Positions 13,803 to 19,148 of a stretch of DNA of 64,000 bases are shown piece after piece (position 1 is the stretch's first letter; every line of letters starts with the position of its first letter). Origin of the DNA: Rossellomorea sp. y25. Lineage in GTDB: Bacteria; Bacillota; Bacilli; Bacillales; Bacillaceae_B. The position numbers and the translations under genes were made by a program. The notes beneath the pieces are model-generated. The model was not told the origin of the DNA and did no database searches. It was given only the letters and a program-made list of their open reading frames with translations. Location: assembly GCF_038049935.1 (NCBI RefSeq), contig NZ_CP145886.1, forward strand, positions 2,550,501-2,614,500. The letters run 5' to 3'.

Positions 13803-13814
13803 AGGATGAAATGT

Positions 13815-14927
13815 ATGAATATTAATGTGAATCCAAAGGAACGGTTAATGTTTAATGCCTTCTTGATAATGTTTATCGTACACACAGCCCAAACCGGAGT
13901 CGGAATTGCAGGACTACCCAGGGTCATTTACATGGAGGCAAACAGGGACGCATGGATTTCTGTTCTATTAGCTGGAATTCTCGTTTCGTTCGTTCTATTT
14001 CTCATGGTAAAAACGCTTGAAACATACGACAGTACCGATTTGTACGGTATCCATATGGATATTTATGGTAAATGGATCAGCAAAGGAATTAACGTTCTTT
14101 ATATTGGATATTATCTCAGTGTCACATACGTGATTTTAATGAACTATATCGAGATGGTCCAGGCATGGATATTCCCTAAAATGCCTACATGGCTCTTGAT
14201 GGGGTTATTGATTTTTTTAATGGTTTATAGTGTGTTGGGGGGGATCCGGGTTGTGGTCGGTATTGCCTTTTTAGGGCTCATCTTTGCCTTCTGGTTAATC
14301 TTTATGATCTACACCCCTATTAAATATCTGGACTTCAATCATCTTCTACCTGTTTTAACATCTTCCCCCAAAGAAATAATGATGGGTATATATAAATCAA
14401 GCTTTACCCTTATTGGCTTTGAATTGGTGTTATTTGTGTACCCTTACATCAAGGAAAAGAAAAAAGTACTAAAATATGGCCTGATTGGTGCAGGATATTC
14501 CACTTTTCTCTTTACGATTGTGACCGTTGTCAGTATCGGGTTTTTCTCAGAAGATGCCCTTTTAAAGACCATCTGGCCAGTCCTGTCCATGTTCAAGATA
14601 TTGAGGATCCCAAACTTGGAGCGATTTGAATTCATTGCCGTCTCTTTCTGGATGCTGGTCATCCTTCCAAACATTTGTCTCTATTTTTGGACAGCTTCAA
14701 GAGGAATGAAAAGAGTATTTAATGTTTCTCAAAAAAAATCCATTTACCTTTTCGCCATCCTGCTATGGCTATTATCCCTATGCGTGCAGGATCGTCTCAC
14801 GATGAATGTCATTACAGACAAAGTTGGGACCTCCAGTTTTATTCTTTCCCTTGTCTATCCCTGCCTCTTATTCATACTGGTTAAATTGAAATACATTAGT
14901 AAGAAAGAAAAGGGTGTAGATGTATGA
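13815..14927 (+). CDS. Spore germination receptor subunit B (GerB permease family), operon 1
   Basis: The preferred start is the ATG at 13815, nine bases after AAAGG; an in-frame ATG at 13806 has almost no spacing. The 370-residue protein has about ten hydrophobic helices and the GerB/APC-type opening MIVHTAQTGVGIAGLPR. GerB subunits bind the germinant, usually an amino acid or related nutrient. It sits 12 bases after gerA and overlaps gerC by four bases, so translation is coupled. The specific germinant cannot be deduced. Confidence 0.9.
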   Translation: MNINVNPKERLMFNAFLIMFIVHTAQTGVGIAGLPRVIYMEANRDAWISVLLAGILVSFVLFLMVKTLETYDSTDLYGIHMDIYGKWISKGINVLYIGYYLSVTYVILMNYIEMVQAWIFPKMPTWLLMGLLIFLMVYSVLGGIRVVVGIAFLGLIFAFWLIFMIYTPIKYLDFNHLLPVLTSSPKEIMMGIYKSSFTLIGFELVLFVYPYIKEKKKVLKYGLIGAGYSTFLFTIVTVVSIGFFSEDALLKTIWPVLSMFKILRIPNLERFEFIAVSFWMLVILPNICLYFWTASRGMKRVFNVSQKKSIYLFAILLWLLSLCVQDRLTMNVITDKVGTSSFILSLVYPCLLFILVKLKYISKKEKGVDV

Positions 14928-16063
14928 TTAAAACCATCATGCTTCTTCTGCTTTGTCTTTGTACTTGTTTCTTAAGCAGCTGTGTGGAGTCAAAATATTT
15001 AGAAAAGCTGGGATTGATTACAGCCGTTGGATATGATCAGGCTGAAGACGAGAAAATAACCGGCACAATGGTCCTGTATCAGTTTAACCCGGCAATGCAG
15101 GACGTTGAAAAGGTACTGATTAGTAAATCTAAGACCAGTAAAGGAATCCGTCTGTCGCAGAATTTAGAAACCGATCATAAGCTTGTTTCCGGTCAGTTAA
15201 GGATTACTGTTTACGGAAGGGAGCTTGCGGAAAAAGGGATTTCCCACTTAGTTGATACGTTGGAAAGGGATTCTTCCATTGGGAATATGGTGTACTTAAC
15301 AATTGCTGATACGACTGCCGAACAAATCCTGAATTATCAAATGACGGAAAGACCTTCGAATATGGGGACGTACTTATATAACTTGGTCAGGCAAAATGTT
15401 GAATCGGAGACACTTGTTTCACCGACACTTCAAGAATTCGTCACTGATTACGGCAGTGTTGGCAAAGACCCCATGCTGCCATTGCTAAAGGCATCAGACG
15501 GGAAGGTTGGAATAGATGGCTTCGCATTATTTACACGGGATAAATTCATTAAAGAGATAAAAAAAGACAAGATTTTTTTTATTCGATCTCTTATGGAAGA
15601 TTACGATGCCGGTAGCGTCGAAGTGGATCTGCCATTAGAAAAGTTCAAACCTTACTTGACAAGTCCTCATCTTGGACAAGAAAAAGATAAGGTTTATATT
15701 ATGATTGATAGTATCGAATCATCCCATAAGATAAAAACAAAGAAAAAAGCAACACCAACCTTTGAAGTGAAATTGAATATCGAATCACGTTTACTTGAAA
15801 TGTCTGAAGAAATGAAGTTGTCAGACCCAAAAGCGTTAAGCTTACTTGAAGATGAGATTGGGGATTATATCGAAAAGAACATTAAAGAAATTATCTTGAT
15901 GCTTCAAGAGGAAGGCACTGATCCGATTGGATTTGGTATGGAGTATAAAAGTATAAGGGGGAACGAAGATTTATCGAGGGAAAAGTGGGATAAGCTGTAC
16001 AAGGATGCTTCTTTTCATGTGAAAGTAGAAAATAAAATCATACGAACAGGAGTGATTGATTAA
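14924..16063 (+). CDS. Spore germination receptor subunit C (Ger(x)C lipoprotein), operon 1
   Basis: The ATG overlaps the gerB stop (ATGA) and is preceded by AAGGGTG. The 379-residue protein has a signal peptide with an LSSC lipobox (Cys20), followed by EKLGLITAVGYD as in GerC lipoproteins, and a long mixed alpha/beta outer domain. Family GerC proteins are attached to the outer face of the spore inner membrane and are required for receptor function. The residue after the lipid Cys (CVES) differs from the CWD seen in operon 2. Confidence 0.9.
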   Translation: MIKTIMLLLLCLCTCFLSSCVESKYLEKLGLITAVGYDQAEDEKITGTMVLYQFNPAMQDVEKVLISKSKTSKGIRLSQNLETDHKLVSGQLRITVYGRELAEKGISHLVDTLERDSSIGNMVYLTIADTTAEQILNYQMTERPSNMGTYLYNLVRQNVESETLVSPTLQEFVTDYGSVGKDPMLPLLKASDGKVGIDGFALFTRDKFIKEIKKDKIFFIRSLMEDYDAGSVEVDLPLEKFKPYLTSPHLGQEKDKVYIMIDSIESSHKIKTKKKATPTFEVKLNIESRLLEMSEEMKLSDPKALSLLEDEIGDYIEKNIKEIILMLQEEGTDPIGFGMEYKSIRGNEDLSREKWDKLYKDASFHVKVENKIIRTGVID

Positions 16064-17128: not shown

Positions 17129-17159
17129 GGGCATGGCATCCTATTACAATGCCATGCCC
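17129..17159. terminator. Hairpin over the end of crcB
   Basis: Eleven-base perfect arms (GGGCATGGCAT and complement) enclose the crcB stop codon in the loop. There is no U-run, so it may act as an mRNA 3' stabilising structure for the convergent genes rather than a classical terminator. Confidence 0.5.
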
Positions 17160-17503
17160 ATTGCATACCCTGCCGCTCCCAATACGACCCCAATGAGATA
17201 ACTTGCGAAAAAATAAAACAGACCCATTTTTGTATTTTCCTGGAGAAGTCTCAATATCTCCCAGTTTAAGGTTGAAAAGGTAGTAAATGCTCCACACACT
17301 CCGATCCCGAAAAAAAACATAACATTCTCTTCAGCACCTCTTCCAACCAGAAGTCCCAAAAGTAAAGAGCCAACTCCATTAACCAACAGAGTCGCTTTCG
17401 GAAATCGCGAACTACTGCATCGCTTAACGACGTTCGCAACTATAAACCGTCCGATTGCCCCAACACTCCCCCCTAATGCGATCAACAAAATGCTAACTCC
17501 CAT
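17144..17503 (-). CDS. crcB: Fluoride channel subunit CrcB (second copy)
   Basis: The 119-residue protein has four hydrophobic helices and the Fluc signatures GGSVGAIGRFI near the start and CGAFTTFSTLNWE in the middle. Fluc channels are dual-topology dimers that expel fluoride. Two adjacent genes, as here, usually encode a heterodimer of opposite orientation. It overlaps the upstream crcB by 11 bases, so translation is coupled. The gene pair lies downstream of no recognisable fluoride riboswitch. Confidence 0.92.
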   Translation of the reverse strand: MGVSILLIALGGSVGAIGRFIVANVVKRCSSSRFPKATLLVNGVGSLLLGLLVGRGAEENVMFFFGIGVCGAFTTFSTLNWEILRLLQENTKMGLFYFFASYLIGVVLGAAGYAMGMAL

Positions 17504-17870
17504 GACCGATCACCCTCCCTTTCCTTCCAGAGACAAAGCCCAAACATGCAAAAAGCATCCCTCCAAAAGAAGTAATGGTCATATATAAGAAAATCATGCC
17601 CCATTGCTCTTGCAAGAAAAAGGTGACCAACTCGATACTAAGTGTCGAAAAAGTTGTAAAAGAGCCCAGGAACCCTGTTGCAATAAGTAAATACGATTTT
17701 TCATATTTAGAAGACCATCGACAATAGAAAAAGGCTAATAGAAAGCTTCCCAGGAGATTCGCCGTTAGTGTCGCGAACGGCAGCCCATTTTGAATGGTCC
17801 AAAGATAACTGATTCCCCACCTGCAAAAACTTCCCAACGCTCCACCGATCCCCACTAGTAAATATTTCAT
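17493..17870 (-). CDS. crcB: Fluoride channel subunit CrcB (first copy)
   Basis: The start at 17870 gives 125 residues; an ATG at 17882 is also in frame but sits directly on its AGGG. The protein carries GGALGSFCRWG and GFLGSFTTFSTLSIE, the conserved channel motifs, on four helices. It should pair with the overlapping second CrcB as one fluoride channel in the cytoplasmic membrane. The upstream leader on the minus strand (17871-17960) lacks the conserved GGNGATGG core of the crcB riboswitch. Confidence 0.9.
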   Translation of the reverse strand: MKYLLVGIGGALGSFCRWGISYLWTIQNGLPFATLTANLLGSFLLAFFYCRWSSKYEKSYLLIATGFLGSFTTFSTLSIELVTFFLQEQWGMIFLYMTITSFGGMLFACLGFVSGRKGRVIGHGS

Positions 17871-18041
17871 TCTGTATAACATCCCTATTTTTTATGATTA
17901 TTTTTTGGTGAAACCTATTGTTCACAATTTCGTATATACAATTACCATAGTTTCTTTTTCCATTTGGGAGTATACTTTAACTGGAACAGAGTTAATGCTT
18001 TAACAATTATATTGATCAGTAAATTAAAGGAGTCTTCTCCA

Positions 18042-18323
18042 TTGACATTTATCATTATACAAGACTTATTAGATTTTTACTTAAGTCCATTACATTTTAG
18101 TATAGTATTACTATTTATCTTCGCTTTGATTTGGGAGCACTTACCTGGCACATTTCATCTTTACGTACGACCCTATGATAAGAAAGTTGAAGGACAAAAT
18201 TTTATCGCAAAGTGCGTTGCAGCTAATGAAATTATTCCTATCGGGATCCGGTTCATTACATGCATGAAATTTCAATTCTACCATACCGATAATGACGAAG
18301 AATCCTCTTCTGTTTGCTTATAA
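18042..18323 (+). CDS. mifM: MifM-like sensor/arrest peptide upstream of yidC2
   Basis: A TTG start at 18042, eight bases after AAAGGAG (18027-18033), gives 93 residues. One membrane helix (about residues 17-34) is followed by a basic HLYVRPYDKK segment and a C-terminal tail with GIRFITCM (68-75) and an acidic DNDEE (83-87). MifM of B. subtilis is about the same length and has the same order: membrane segment, Arg/Ile-containing arrest region, acidic cluster, placed directly before yidC2. There it stalls ribosomes when SpoIIIJ is inactive and opens a hairpin over the yidC2 ribosome site. The identity rests on layout and position, since no alignment could be run. The hairpin itself is listed separately. 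Confidence 0.72.
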   Translation: MTFIIIQDLLDFYLSPLHFSIVLLFIFALIWEHLPGTFHLYVRPYDKKVEGQNFIAKCVAANEIIPIGIRFITCMKFQFYHTDNDEESSSVCL

Positions 18324-18352
18324 CCAGCAAGCATTTATACAGAGGAGGAATT
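18301..18352 (+). promoter_or_regulatory. Hairpin hiding the yidC ribosome-binding site
   Basis: Bases 18304-18312 (CCTCTTCTG, inside the last codons of the mifM-like ORF) pair with 18340-18348 (CAGAGGAGG), the Shine-Dalgarno of yidC, with one G-U pair. The stem extends by T18303-A18349 and, past a bulged A, by two more pairs. An inner 5-bp stem joins 18315-18319 with 18329-18333. A ribosome halted at the acidic codons (about 18288-18302) would cover the left arm and free GAGGAGG. Confidence 0.75.
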
Positions 18353-18356
18353 ATCA

Positions 18357-19118
18357 TTGAGAAAAATTTCATTCATCATGCTCTTGTCACTATTCACTCT
18401 AACAGGGTGTCAAAGTGCAACAACTGAAGGAGCGTTCTTTCACGACTATCTTGTTAACCCATTTTCGTTTCTCATCCATGAAATAGGTACCTTCCTGGGT
18501 GGAAACTTTGGTCTTGCGATCATTGTCATTACCCTTCTTATTCGTCTCGTTCTTCTTCCTTTTATGCTTAAAACGTATAAGAATCAACAGGATATGAAAG
18601 GAAAAATGGCATTAATCAAACCGGAGATGACGCAAATCCAAAAGAACATAAAAGAAGCGAAAAATAAAGATGAACAGAAGAAGCTTCAGCAAGAAATGAT
18701 GTTGCTTTACCAAAAACATGGAGTGAATCCTCTTAATATGGGATGTTTACCCTTATTCATTCAAACCCCCATATTGATTGGGTTATACTATGCGATTCGG
18801 TCATCATCTGAAATTGCAAGCCACTCCTTTCTATGGTTTAATTTGGGACAGCCGGACTATATAATGGCCATCATCGCTGGTGTTGTGTATTTAGCCCAAG
18901 CTCGGGTATCCTTGATGAATGTTCCTGCAGAACAGCTTGCCCAAATGAAAATAATGAGTTACCTTTCACCCATTATGATCTTTATTTTTTCAGTTAATGC
19001 GCCGGCTGCCTTACCACTGTATTGGACTATAGGAGGGGCATTCCTCATATTACAAACGCTGATTGGTAAGACTCTTTATCATCATCAACCATCTTTAGAA
19101 AAACAAGAAAGTCAATGA
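18357..19118 (+). CDS. yidC2: Membrane protein insertase YidC/OxaI family (YidC2-type)
   Basis: Translation starts at a TTG with GAGGAGG eight bases upstream. The 253-residue protein has a lipoprotein signal (LTGC, Cys18) and then the YidC core: ITLLIRLVLLPFML with the conserved Arg in the groove, a charged hairpin loop (KNQQDMKGKM to KKLQQEMMLLYQKHGVNP), and further helices. It inserts and folds membrane proteins with or without SecYEG. The MifM-like ORF in front suggests it is the inducible, second insertase, like B. subtilis YidC2 (YqjG). Confidence 0.9.
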   Translation: MRKISFIMLLSLFTLTGCQSATTEGAFFHDYLVNPFSFLIHEIGTFLGGNFGLAIIVITLLIRLVLLPFMLKTYKNQQDMKGKMALIKPEMTQIQKNIKEAKNKDEQKKLQQEMMLLYQKHGVNPLNMGCLPLFIQTPILIGLYYAIRSSSEIASHSFLWFNLGQPDYIMAIIAGVVYLAQARVSLMNVPAEQLAQMKIMSYLSPIMIFIFSVNAPAALPLYWTIGGAFLILQTLIGKTLYHHQPSLEKQESQ

Positions 19119-19148
19119 AAAAAGGGAGCCCTCAAGCTCCCTTTTTTA
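19119..19148. terminator. Bidirectional terminator
   Basis: A symmetric AAAAAAGGGAGC/GCTCCCTTTTTT stem follows yidC2 immediately and faces the convergent carboxypeptidase gene. Confidence 0.85.

Follow-up and report, generated by a model that had tools for sequence, protein, structure and literature searches.

The 93-codon open reading frame (uORF) directly before yidC2 in Rossellomorea sp. y25 is very probably the MifM ortholog of this genus, joined with yidC2 in a two-gene switch whose arrest, arrest site, release and induction are modelled on B. subtilis MifM. Positions refer to the window, the whole 64,000-nucleotide stretch of DNA that was analysed (Table 1). A MifM-like reading of the pair had been put forward in the initial annotation, and it is supported here by anatomy (gene order, helix, spacing and acidic tail), conservation, a predicted hairpin that buries the yidC2 Shine-Dalgarno (SD) sequence and has its left arm in the uORF, co-occurrence with yidC2, and transitive homology, all of them computed.

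In the proposed switch, as long as no ribosome is held at the uORF end, the hairpin (18303-18349) would hide the yidC2 SD and little YidC2 would be made. When the helix is inserted slowly by YidC1 (or YidC2), the tail CMKFQFYHTDNDEE in the exit tunnel would arrest the ribosome near codons 84-89; the arrested ribosome would cover the left arm, so that the SD is exposed and synthesis of YidC2 can proceed. Helix insertion would pull the nascent chain and release the arrest. The published MifM model likewise has the SD hidden, arrest mainly at codons 89-92 and release on insertion (PMC6037786 and PMC13183943).

Table 1. Annotated and predicted features of the uORF-yidC2 locus, in window coordinates.
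Feature	Position	Strand	Basis and remarks
uORF SD AAAGGAG	18026..18032	+	sequence; kept in relatives
uORF, putative MifM ortholog	18042..18323	+	93 codons, TTG start, TAA stop
Predicted membrane helix, codons 12-30	18075..18131	+	hydropathy; putative topology
Conserved tail RFITCMKFQFYHTDNDEE, codons 70-87, putative arrest segment	18249..18302	+	pN/pS 0.085; profile alignment
Acidic cluster DNDEE, codons 83-87	18288..18302	+	would lie at the peptidyl transferase centre during arrest
Outer anti-SD stem, left arm (uORF codons 88-91)	18303..18313	+	RNA folding
Inner 5-bp stem (18314-18318 with 18326-18330) and loop	18314..18330	+	RNA folding
Outer stem, right arm, holds yidC2 SD	18339..18349	+	RNA folding
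yidC2 SD AGGAGG	18343..18348	+	sequence, SD pairing analysis
yidC2, secondary YidC insertase	18357..19118	+	TTG start, lipoprotein-type signal; PF02096 E 4.9e-44
Terminator-like hairpin after yidC2	19118..19147	unassigned (.)	terminator scan and sequence

Anatomy of the uORF and yidC2

The uORF had been described as a TTG-started frame of 93 codons with one membrane helix, ending in a particular tail before yidC, and this is what the sequence holds: the SD lies ahead of the frame, a single hydrophobic helix spans residues 12-30 (mean hydropathy 2.2), and the tail GIRFITCMKFQFYHTDNDEE is present. No lysine or arginine occurs in residues 1-17 and three occur in residues 34-55, so an N-out/C-in topology is expected; in 20 genus sequences none precede the helix and 0-3 follow it (0 in two sequences). 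The uORF stop is separated by 33 nt from the start of yidC2, which has the same orientation. No family for the uORF was present in Pfam or NCBIfam, PDB searches with it returned chance matches only, and Rfam gave only sub-threshold chance matches.

A longer form of 119 amino acids starting at 17964, taken from a mechanical list of open frames, was set aside for the 93-codon form. The entire stop-to-stop frame is just 98-101 residues in 17 of the 24 genus matches to profile A1, which argues against the longer form, and the genus SD sits ahead of the 93-codon TTG or GTG.

Weak starts are kept in both genes: the uORF begins with TTG or GTG in all 20 core genus sequences (ATG in none), and yidC2 with TTG in 26 of 26 scored genus loci. 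The uORF SD may itself be held in a small hairpin, GGAG-TCTT-CTCC (18029-18040), just before the TTG. Judged by eye, this stem is kept in most genus sequences with a varying loop (TCTA, TTAT, TCAT or CCAAC), is shorter in L016, is broken in L070 and is not seen in L017, L093 and L099. It might damp uORF initiation.

The genome (4.63 Mb, single contig) carries two yidC genes, the other one at 4,630,820, near the contig end. It contains a single uORF match, before the second yidC, and none elsewhere. The lipoprotein signal of YidC2 is a sub-threshold lipoprotein match; the YidC proteins of the nearest loci (L003-L015) are 85-93% identical to it. The hairpin after yidC2 was listed by the terminator scan for the minus strand only, though on the plus strand, too, it is followed by a run of T, and the scan listed none between uORF and yidC2. 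The two genes are therefore probably co-transcribed. Further upstream lie two small membrane proteins on the minus strand (17144-17882), which we take to resemble a CrcB-type pair, and two plus-strand genes (13806-16063) that presumably resemble germination receptor subunits.

Co-occurrence with yidC2

Profile A2 detected the uORF in 27 of 36 Rossellomorea genomes, adding G014, G015 and G028 to the 24 found with the narrower profile A1. A PF02096 search, read off by hand, placed a yidC2-type gene in the same 27 genomes. None of the nine genomes without one has the uORF. The 36 genomes are related and do not count as independent observations. Eight of those nine have one yidC only, and the second copy in G020 scores like yidC1 (182.9 bits).

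Across the order, A2 matched 75 of 199 sampled genomes. Outside the genus, 65 of 70 matches stood directly before a yidC: the yidC match overlapped the uORF or began no more than 101 nt downstream of its stop. The five exceptions (L151, L160, L162, L165 and L170) all have E values above 1e-4. Exactly two yidC genes were present in each of ten uORF-bearing genomes checked.

Homology to MifM through intermediates

The initial annotation had envisaged an alignment with MifM, which does not hold by direct comparison and does hold by way of intermediates. BLASTP of B. mojavensis P0035 ('Regulator of OxaAB translation') against the window uORF gave an E value of 38. Bacillus profile A4 was built from 15 of 23 search matches, which include proteins named MifM or its synonyms from B. 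pumilus, B. mojavensis and B. subtilis. Compared with Rossellomorea profile A1 it returned 0.4% probability and a score of 12.9, within the range obtained with column-shuffled A1 (mean 11.2, up to 19.3).

The intermediates are 64 uORFs of the order, compiled into a profile without any Rossellomorea sequence and without L167. This profile scored the window uORF at 20.5 bits (E 2.6e-5 for 1000 sequences); the best of 2933 decoys (233 open frames of the window and 2700 shuffled uORFs), the uORF's own frame aside, reached 12.5 bits. The test is not wholly independent, because the 64 uORFs had been found with A2, which has five Rossellomorea rows among 26. The other genus uORFs scored 10.0-52.2 bits: the nearest kin of the window (L003-L005, L010 and L068) 13.7-17.2, L016 17.1, the remaining core sequences 23.9-32.6, and the divergent L017, L093 and L099, which are nearer the common form, 42-52; L072-L074, at 10.0-12.4 bits, did no better than decoys. 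All 15 Bacillus homologs in A4 were matched at 19.9-39.5 bits. In profile comparisons the 64-uORF profile matched A4 with 97% probability (E 3e-11) and A1 with 89% (score 32.7, against a maximum of 19.6 in 100 column shuffles). These scores argue that the window uORF is homologous to MifM, a link that passes through intermediates only, and most likely its ortholog.

The family itself has been described across Firmicutes, with 572 MifM-like proteins from 592 genomes (PMC10987492), and the window uORF appears as an added member and not a new system. The set of that survey was drawn from annotated genes. Since some uORFs of the present set carry a hypothetical-protein annotation, the 572 may already include some of them. 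No paper pairing Rossellomorea with MifM or with YidC was found among open-licence papers.

A predicted hairpin hides the yidC2 SD

A 9-bp stem between 18304-18312 and 18340-18348, noted in the initial annotation, is right; the predicted fold is larger, with 11 outer pairs, one of them G.U, and five inner ones. The segment 18303-18359 folds with a minimum free energy of -18.9 kcal/mol (z -4.93; none of 200 dinucleotide shuffles as stable), and a longer piece around the hairpin gives z -3.22. The SD is predicted to pair with uORF codons 88-90. Its pairing value of 1.00 was matched by none of 200 shuffles, though SD pairing alone discriminates weakly, since shuffled controls often pair the SD (mean 0.75). 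Removing the sequence up to 18315, to mimic a stalled ribosome, leaves a remainder that folds at only -2 kcal/mol. When the left arm was masked by a modelled stalled ribosome, its P-site set anywhere between two codons upstream and three codons downstream of the last acidic one, the pairing probability of the window SD fell to 0.19-0.25; in L069, one of the four masked models, the SD stayed partly paired (0.08-0.59).

SD pairing of at least 0.8 was predicted in 23 of 26 scored genus yidC2 loci and exceeded 95% of shuffles in 19; three loci fell below 0.8 and seven were not above 95% of shuffles. In the order, 16 of 61 loci were below 0.8 and 29 of 61 not above 95% of shuffles. Among yidC1 controls, taken from 20 of the 36 genus genomes, pairing reached 0.8 in 2 of 20 and exceeded 95% of shuffles in 0 of 20. 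Each yidC2 locus was compared with 200 shuffles and each yidC1 control with 100. Scoring left out L133, L161, L166 and L074, where the SD rule found none, and L167.

Counted in a fixed register, every one of the 11 outer pairs forms in 16-20 of the 20 core sequences of the genus. Together with the rarity of synonymous change in the codons of the stem, this speaks against a chance fold. Pairing is kept by one-sided changes (C-G to U-G, G-C to G-U and U-G to C-G), and pairs are broken in L010, L011, L013 and L068-L071. The SD side hardly varies, and for that reason these 20 sequences offer no clear case of two compensating changes in the outer stem. By the folding models, the yidC2 SD is sequestered in a hairpin which a ribosome located at the end of the uORF would unfold, as in MifM.

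A different layout occurs at L140, L145, L147, L148, L153-L155, L158, L163 and L168, where the uORF extends 37-67 nt past the yidC start. This places the yidC SD within the uORF, where it forms Gly-Gly codons; the acidic cluster is found about 30-42 codons before the uORF stop. In L020, too, the uORF overlaps yidC.

Selection changes from peptide to RNA at codon 87/88

The 44 genus loci hold 27 distinct uORF sequences. Codon-level selection was measured on the 20 that share the 93-codon frame and a C-M-K-x-Q-x-Y tail, leaving out seven more divergent ones (L016, L017, L072-L074, L093 and L099). By codon block, pN/pS was 0.192 for codons 2-35, 0.515 for codons 36-69 and 0.085 for codons 70-87, the last block combining a pS of 0.78 with a pN of 0.067. 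In codons 88-91, the stem arm, pS dropped to 0.131, compared with 0.562 for codons 2-93. Such suppression of synonymous change is as expected of an RNA arm, and the two patterns together point to selection that acts on the protein through codon 87 and on the RNA thereafter. So sharp a change gives a prediction of the stall site.

A lineage-specific tail

Tails were aligned on the W column for 59 uORFs of other genera, 15 Bacillus sequences and 20 Rossellomorea sequences; five alkaliphile uORFs, in which the acids begin at about W+14, were kept apart. Aspartate occupies W+13 in 44 of the 59 other uORFs and in all 15 Bacillus and 20 Rossellomorea sequences. Ahead of the acids the 59 mostly read W-[IL]-x-[KR]-x-[IV]-[RK]-R-K-[ED], with W+3 basic in 44, W+7 basic in 51 and W+8 K in 38. 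The Bacillus sequences have K at W+3, M at W+7 and K or N at W+8. The Rossellomorea sequences have T at W+3 (17), F at W+7 (17) and Q at W+8 (20), and five further positions are invariant: C (W+4), M (W+5), K (W+6), Y (W+10) and N (W+14). At the W position itself 12 sequences have W and the other 8, that of the window included, have R. The Rossellomorea tail, FxxCMKFQFYHxDNDEE, appears to be a re-wired, lineage-specific form of a putative stalling tail.

The residues that matter in B. subtilis MifM are R69, I70, W73, I74, M80, N81 and the acidic cluster (PMC7897499, PMC4423224), and acidic residues play a part in the arrest (PMC13183943). The window tail does not match the motif RIxxWIxxxxxMNxxxxDEED: R69 is replaced by P, W73 by R, I74 by F, R79 by K, M80 by F and N81 by Q, and the acidic run is broken by N (DNDEE). 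What fits is an isoleucine at the place of I70, the first D and the acidic character. A basic residue is kept at R79 and an amide at N81, where the latter could take the N81 contact to L4. The suspicion voiced in the initial annotation, that the arrest motif had diverged, is thus confirmed by the replaced positions. With W73, I74, M80 and N81 changed, arrest on the window tail, and on which ribosomes, is not assured. Nor does the B. subtilis motif define the family, since W+7 and W+8 are mostly R and K in the 59 other-genus uORFs. As a DNA pattern, the exact motif occurs in 0 of 398 class genomes, a count that says little because one or two residue changes defeat such a pattern and the sample may lack B. 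subtilis.

In a MifM protein the acidic cluster is expected within residues 70-100, some 54 residues beyond the helix, and DNDEE stands at 83-87. The distance from helix to last acidic residue is 57 in the window (by hydropathy window), with a median of 55 in the order; the published median for MifM, obtained by another method, is 54 (PMC10987492).

The position of the SD-pairing arm was compared over 23 genus loci with coding-arm pairing of at least 0.8. Measured from the first base of the last acidic codon, its centre lies 6.0-6.6 nt downstream in 18 of these loci and 9.5-13 nt downstream in the other five, compared with a median of 14 nt (range 8-22) in 44 order loci. In these models the distance between the anti-SD arm and the acidic codons would be shorter in Rossellomorea by about 7 nt than elsewhere in the family. 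Counted from the first base of its P-site codon, a ribosome covers about 15 nt of mRNA ahead. Both arm spacings are compatible with this cover, and the Rossellomorea arrangement would allow stalls up to about two codons earlier.

A bolder reading, which we hold possible and on balance doubtful, is that the Rossellomorea form places an aromatic/amide F-x-x-C-M-K-F-Q-F-Y-H where other MifM proteins have a basic RRK or RMN/RMK at the tunnel constriction, stalls about two codons earlier than they do, and has a strong hairpin, beginning right after the last acidic codon, that not only hides the SD but also contributes to the stall. More generally, the comparison suggests that homologous arrest peptides can retain the position of the gene, the spacing and the acidic end, and yet differ between lineages in the residues that should contact the tunnel. 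Three natural variants, the MifM of Bacillus and the RRK and Rossellomorea forms, could serve to identify the tunnel contacts that are required and to see if each variant is fitted to the ribosome of its own host.

Alternative explanations

Plain translational coupling would make the peptide a mere vehicle: any ribosome reading the uORF end would open the hairpin, and no arrest would be needed. Passing ribosomes must indeed open it, as the left arm is uORF coding sequence, and the weak TTG or GTG start of the 20 core sequences is also in keeping with coupling. However, coupling gives no reason for the constraint on residues 70-87, those that would fill the tunnel, and this tail is the most constrained part at the amino-acid level (0.085, compared with 0.515 for codons 36-69); we judge coupling without arrest improbable. 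A small protein with a membrane job of its own, as partner or substrate adaptor of YidC2, would account for the constraint on the helix region (0.192) and for the co-occurrence with yidC2. The hairpin would then be incidental, whereas synonymous change is rare in codons 88-91 (pS 0.131), 23 of 26 genus yidC2 loci have a buried SD against 2 of 20 yidC1 loci, and the acidic cluster holds a distance from the W column common with Bacillus MifM, which leaves this explanation hardly probable at all.

A third alternative is convergence: an arrest peptide that works like MifM but has an origin of its own before yidC2, as is the case for ApcA and CliM. The failed direct comparison with Bacillus MifM and a tail that differs at most positions would fit this. 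Yet a profile free of Rossellomorea finds both the Bacillus MifM and the Rossellomorea peptides, the genus itself includes L017, L093 and L099 nearer the common form (42-52 bits), and gene position, length and spacing are the same as in MifM, so an independent origin seems very improbable.

Relation to known systems

The preferred reading, a MifM ortholog that controls yidC2, sets the window beside B. subtilis MifM-YidC2 (YqjG), which likewise has a uORF of about 95 codons with one N-terminal helix before the secondary yidC and a hairpin hiding the yidC2 SD (PMC6037786), the latter predicted in the window. The acidic cluster is equally far from the W column in both; besides its tail, the window uORF differs in its TTG start. 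MifM-like uORFs of other Firmicutes share the gene position, the helix and an acidic region at residues 75-95 (PMC10987492), whereas the anti-SD arm of the other-genus uORFs compared here is further from the acids than in Rossellomorea. CliM (uC_KYxIW) of Clostridia is also a helix-bearing uORF before yidC2, an arrest peptide with an SD-hiding hairpin; its KYxIW motif has been contrasted with MifM's need for acidic residues, and the two are reported to lack sequence similarity (PMC13183943). No KYxIW-like motif was seen by eye in the translated window uORF. ApcA of actinobacteria resembles the window in having a uORF before the secondary yidC (PMC7897499) and carries a RAPG motif (PMC10987492); inspection of the translated window uORF by eye found no RAPG or RAPP-like motif (ApcA / RQH family).

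In alkaliphilic genera (L036-L040, L112-L114, L137 and L139), the uORF has a YRPKIP tail with an acidic end and no W..IRRK. The yidC genes of the six placed in the tree (L036-L040 and L137) group with yidC1, in a tree on which the main reading of the window does not depend, and two yidC genes were present in each of five YRPKIP-tail genomes checked. This type may represent a MifM-like form of its own, associated with a duplicated yidC1.
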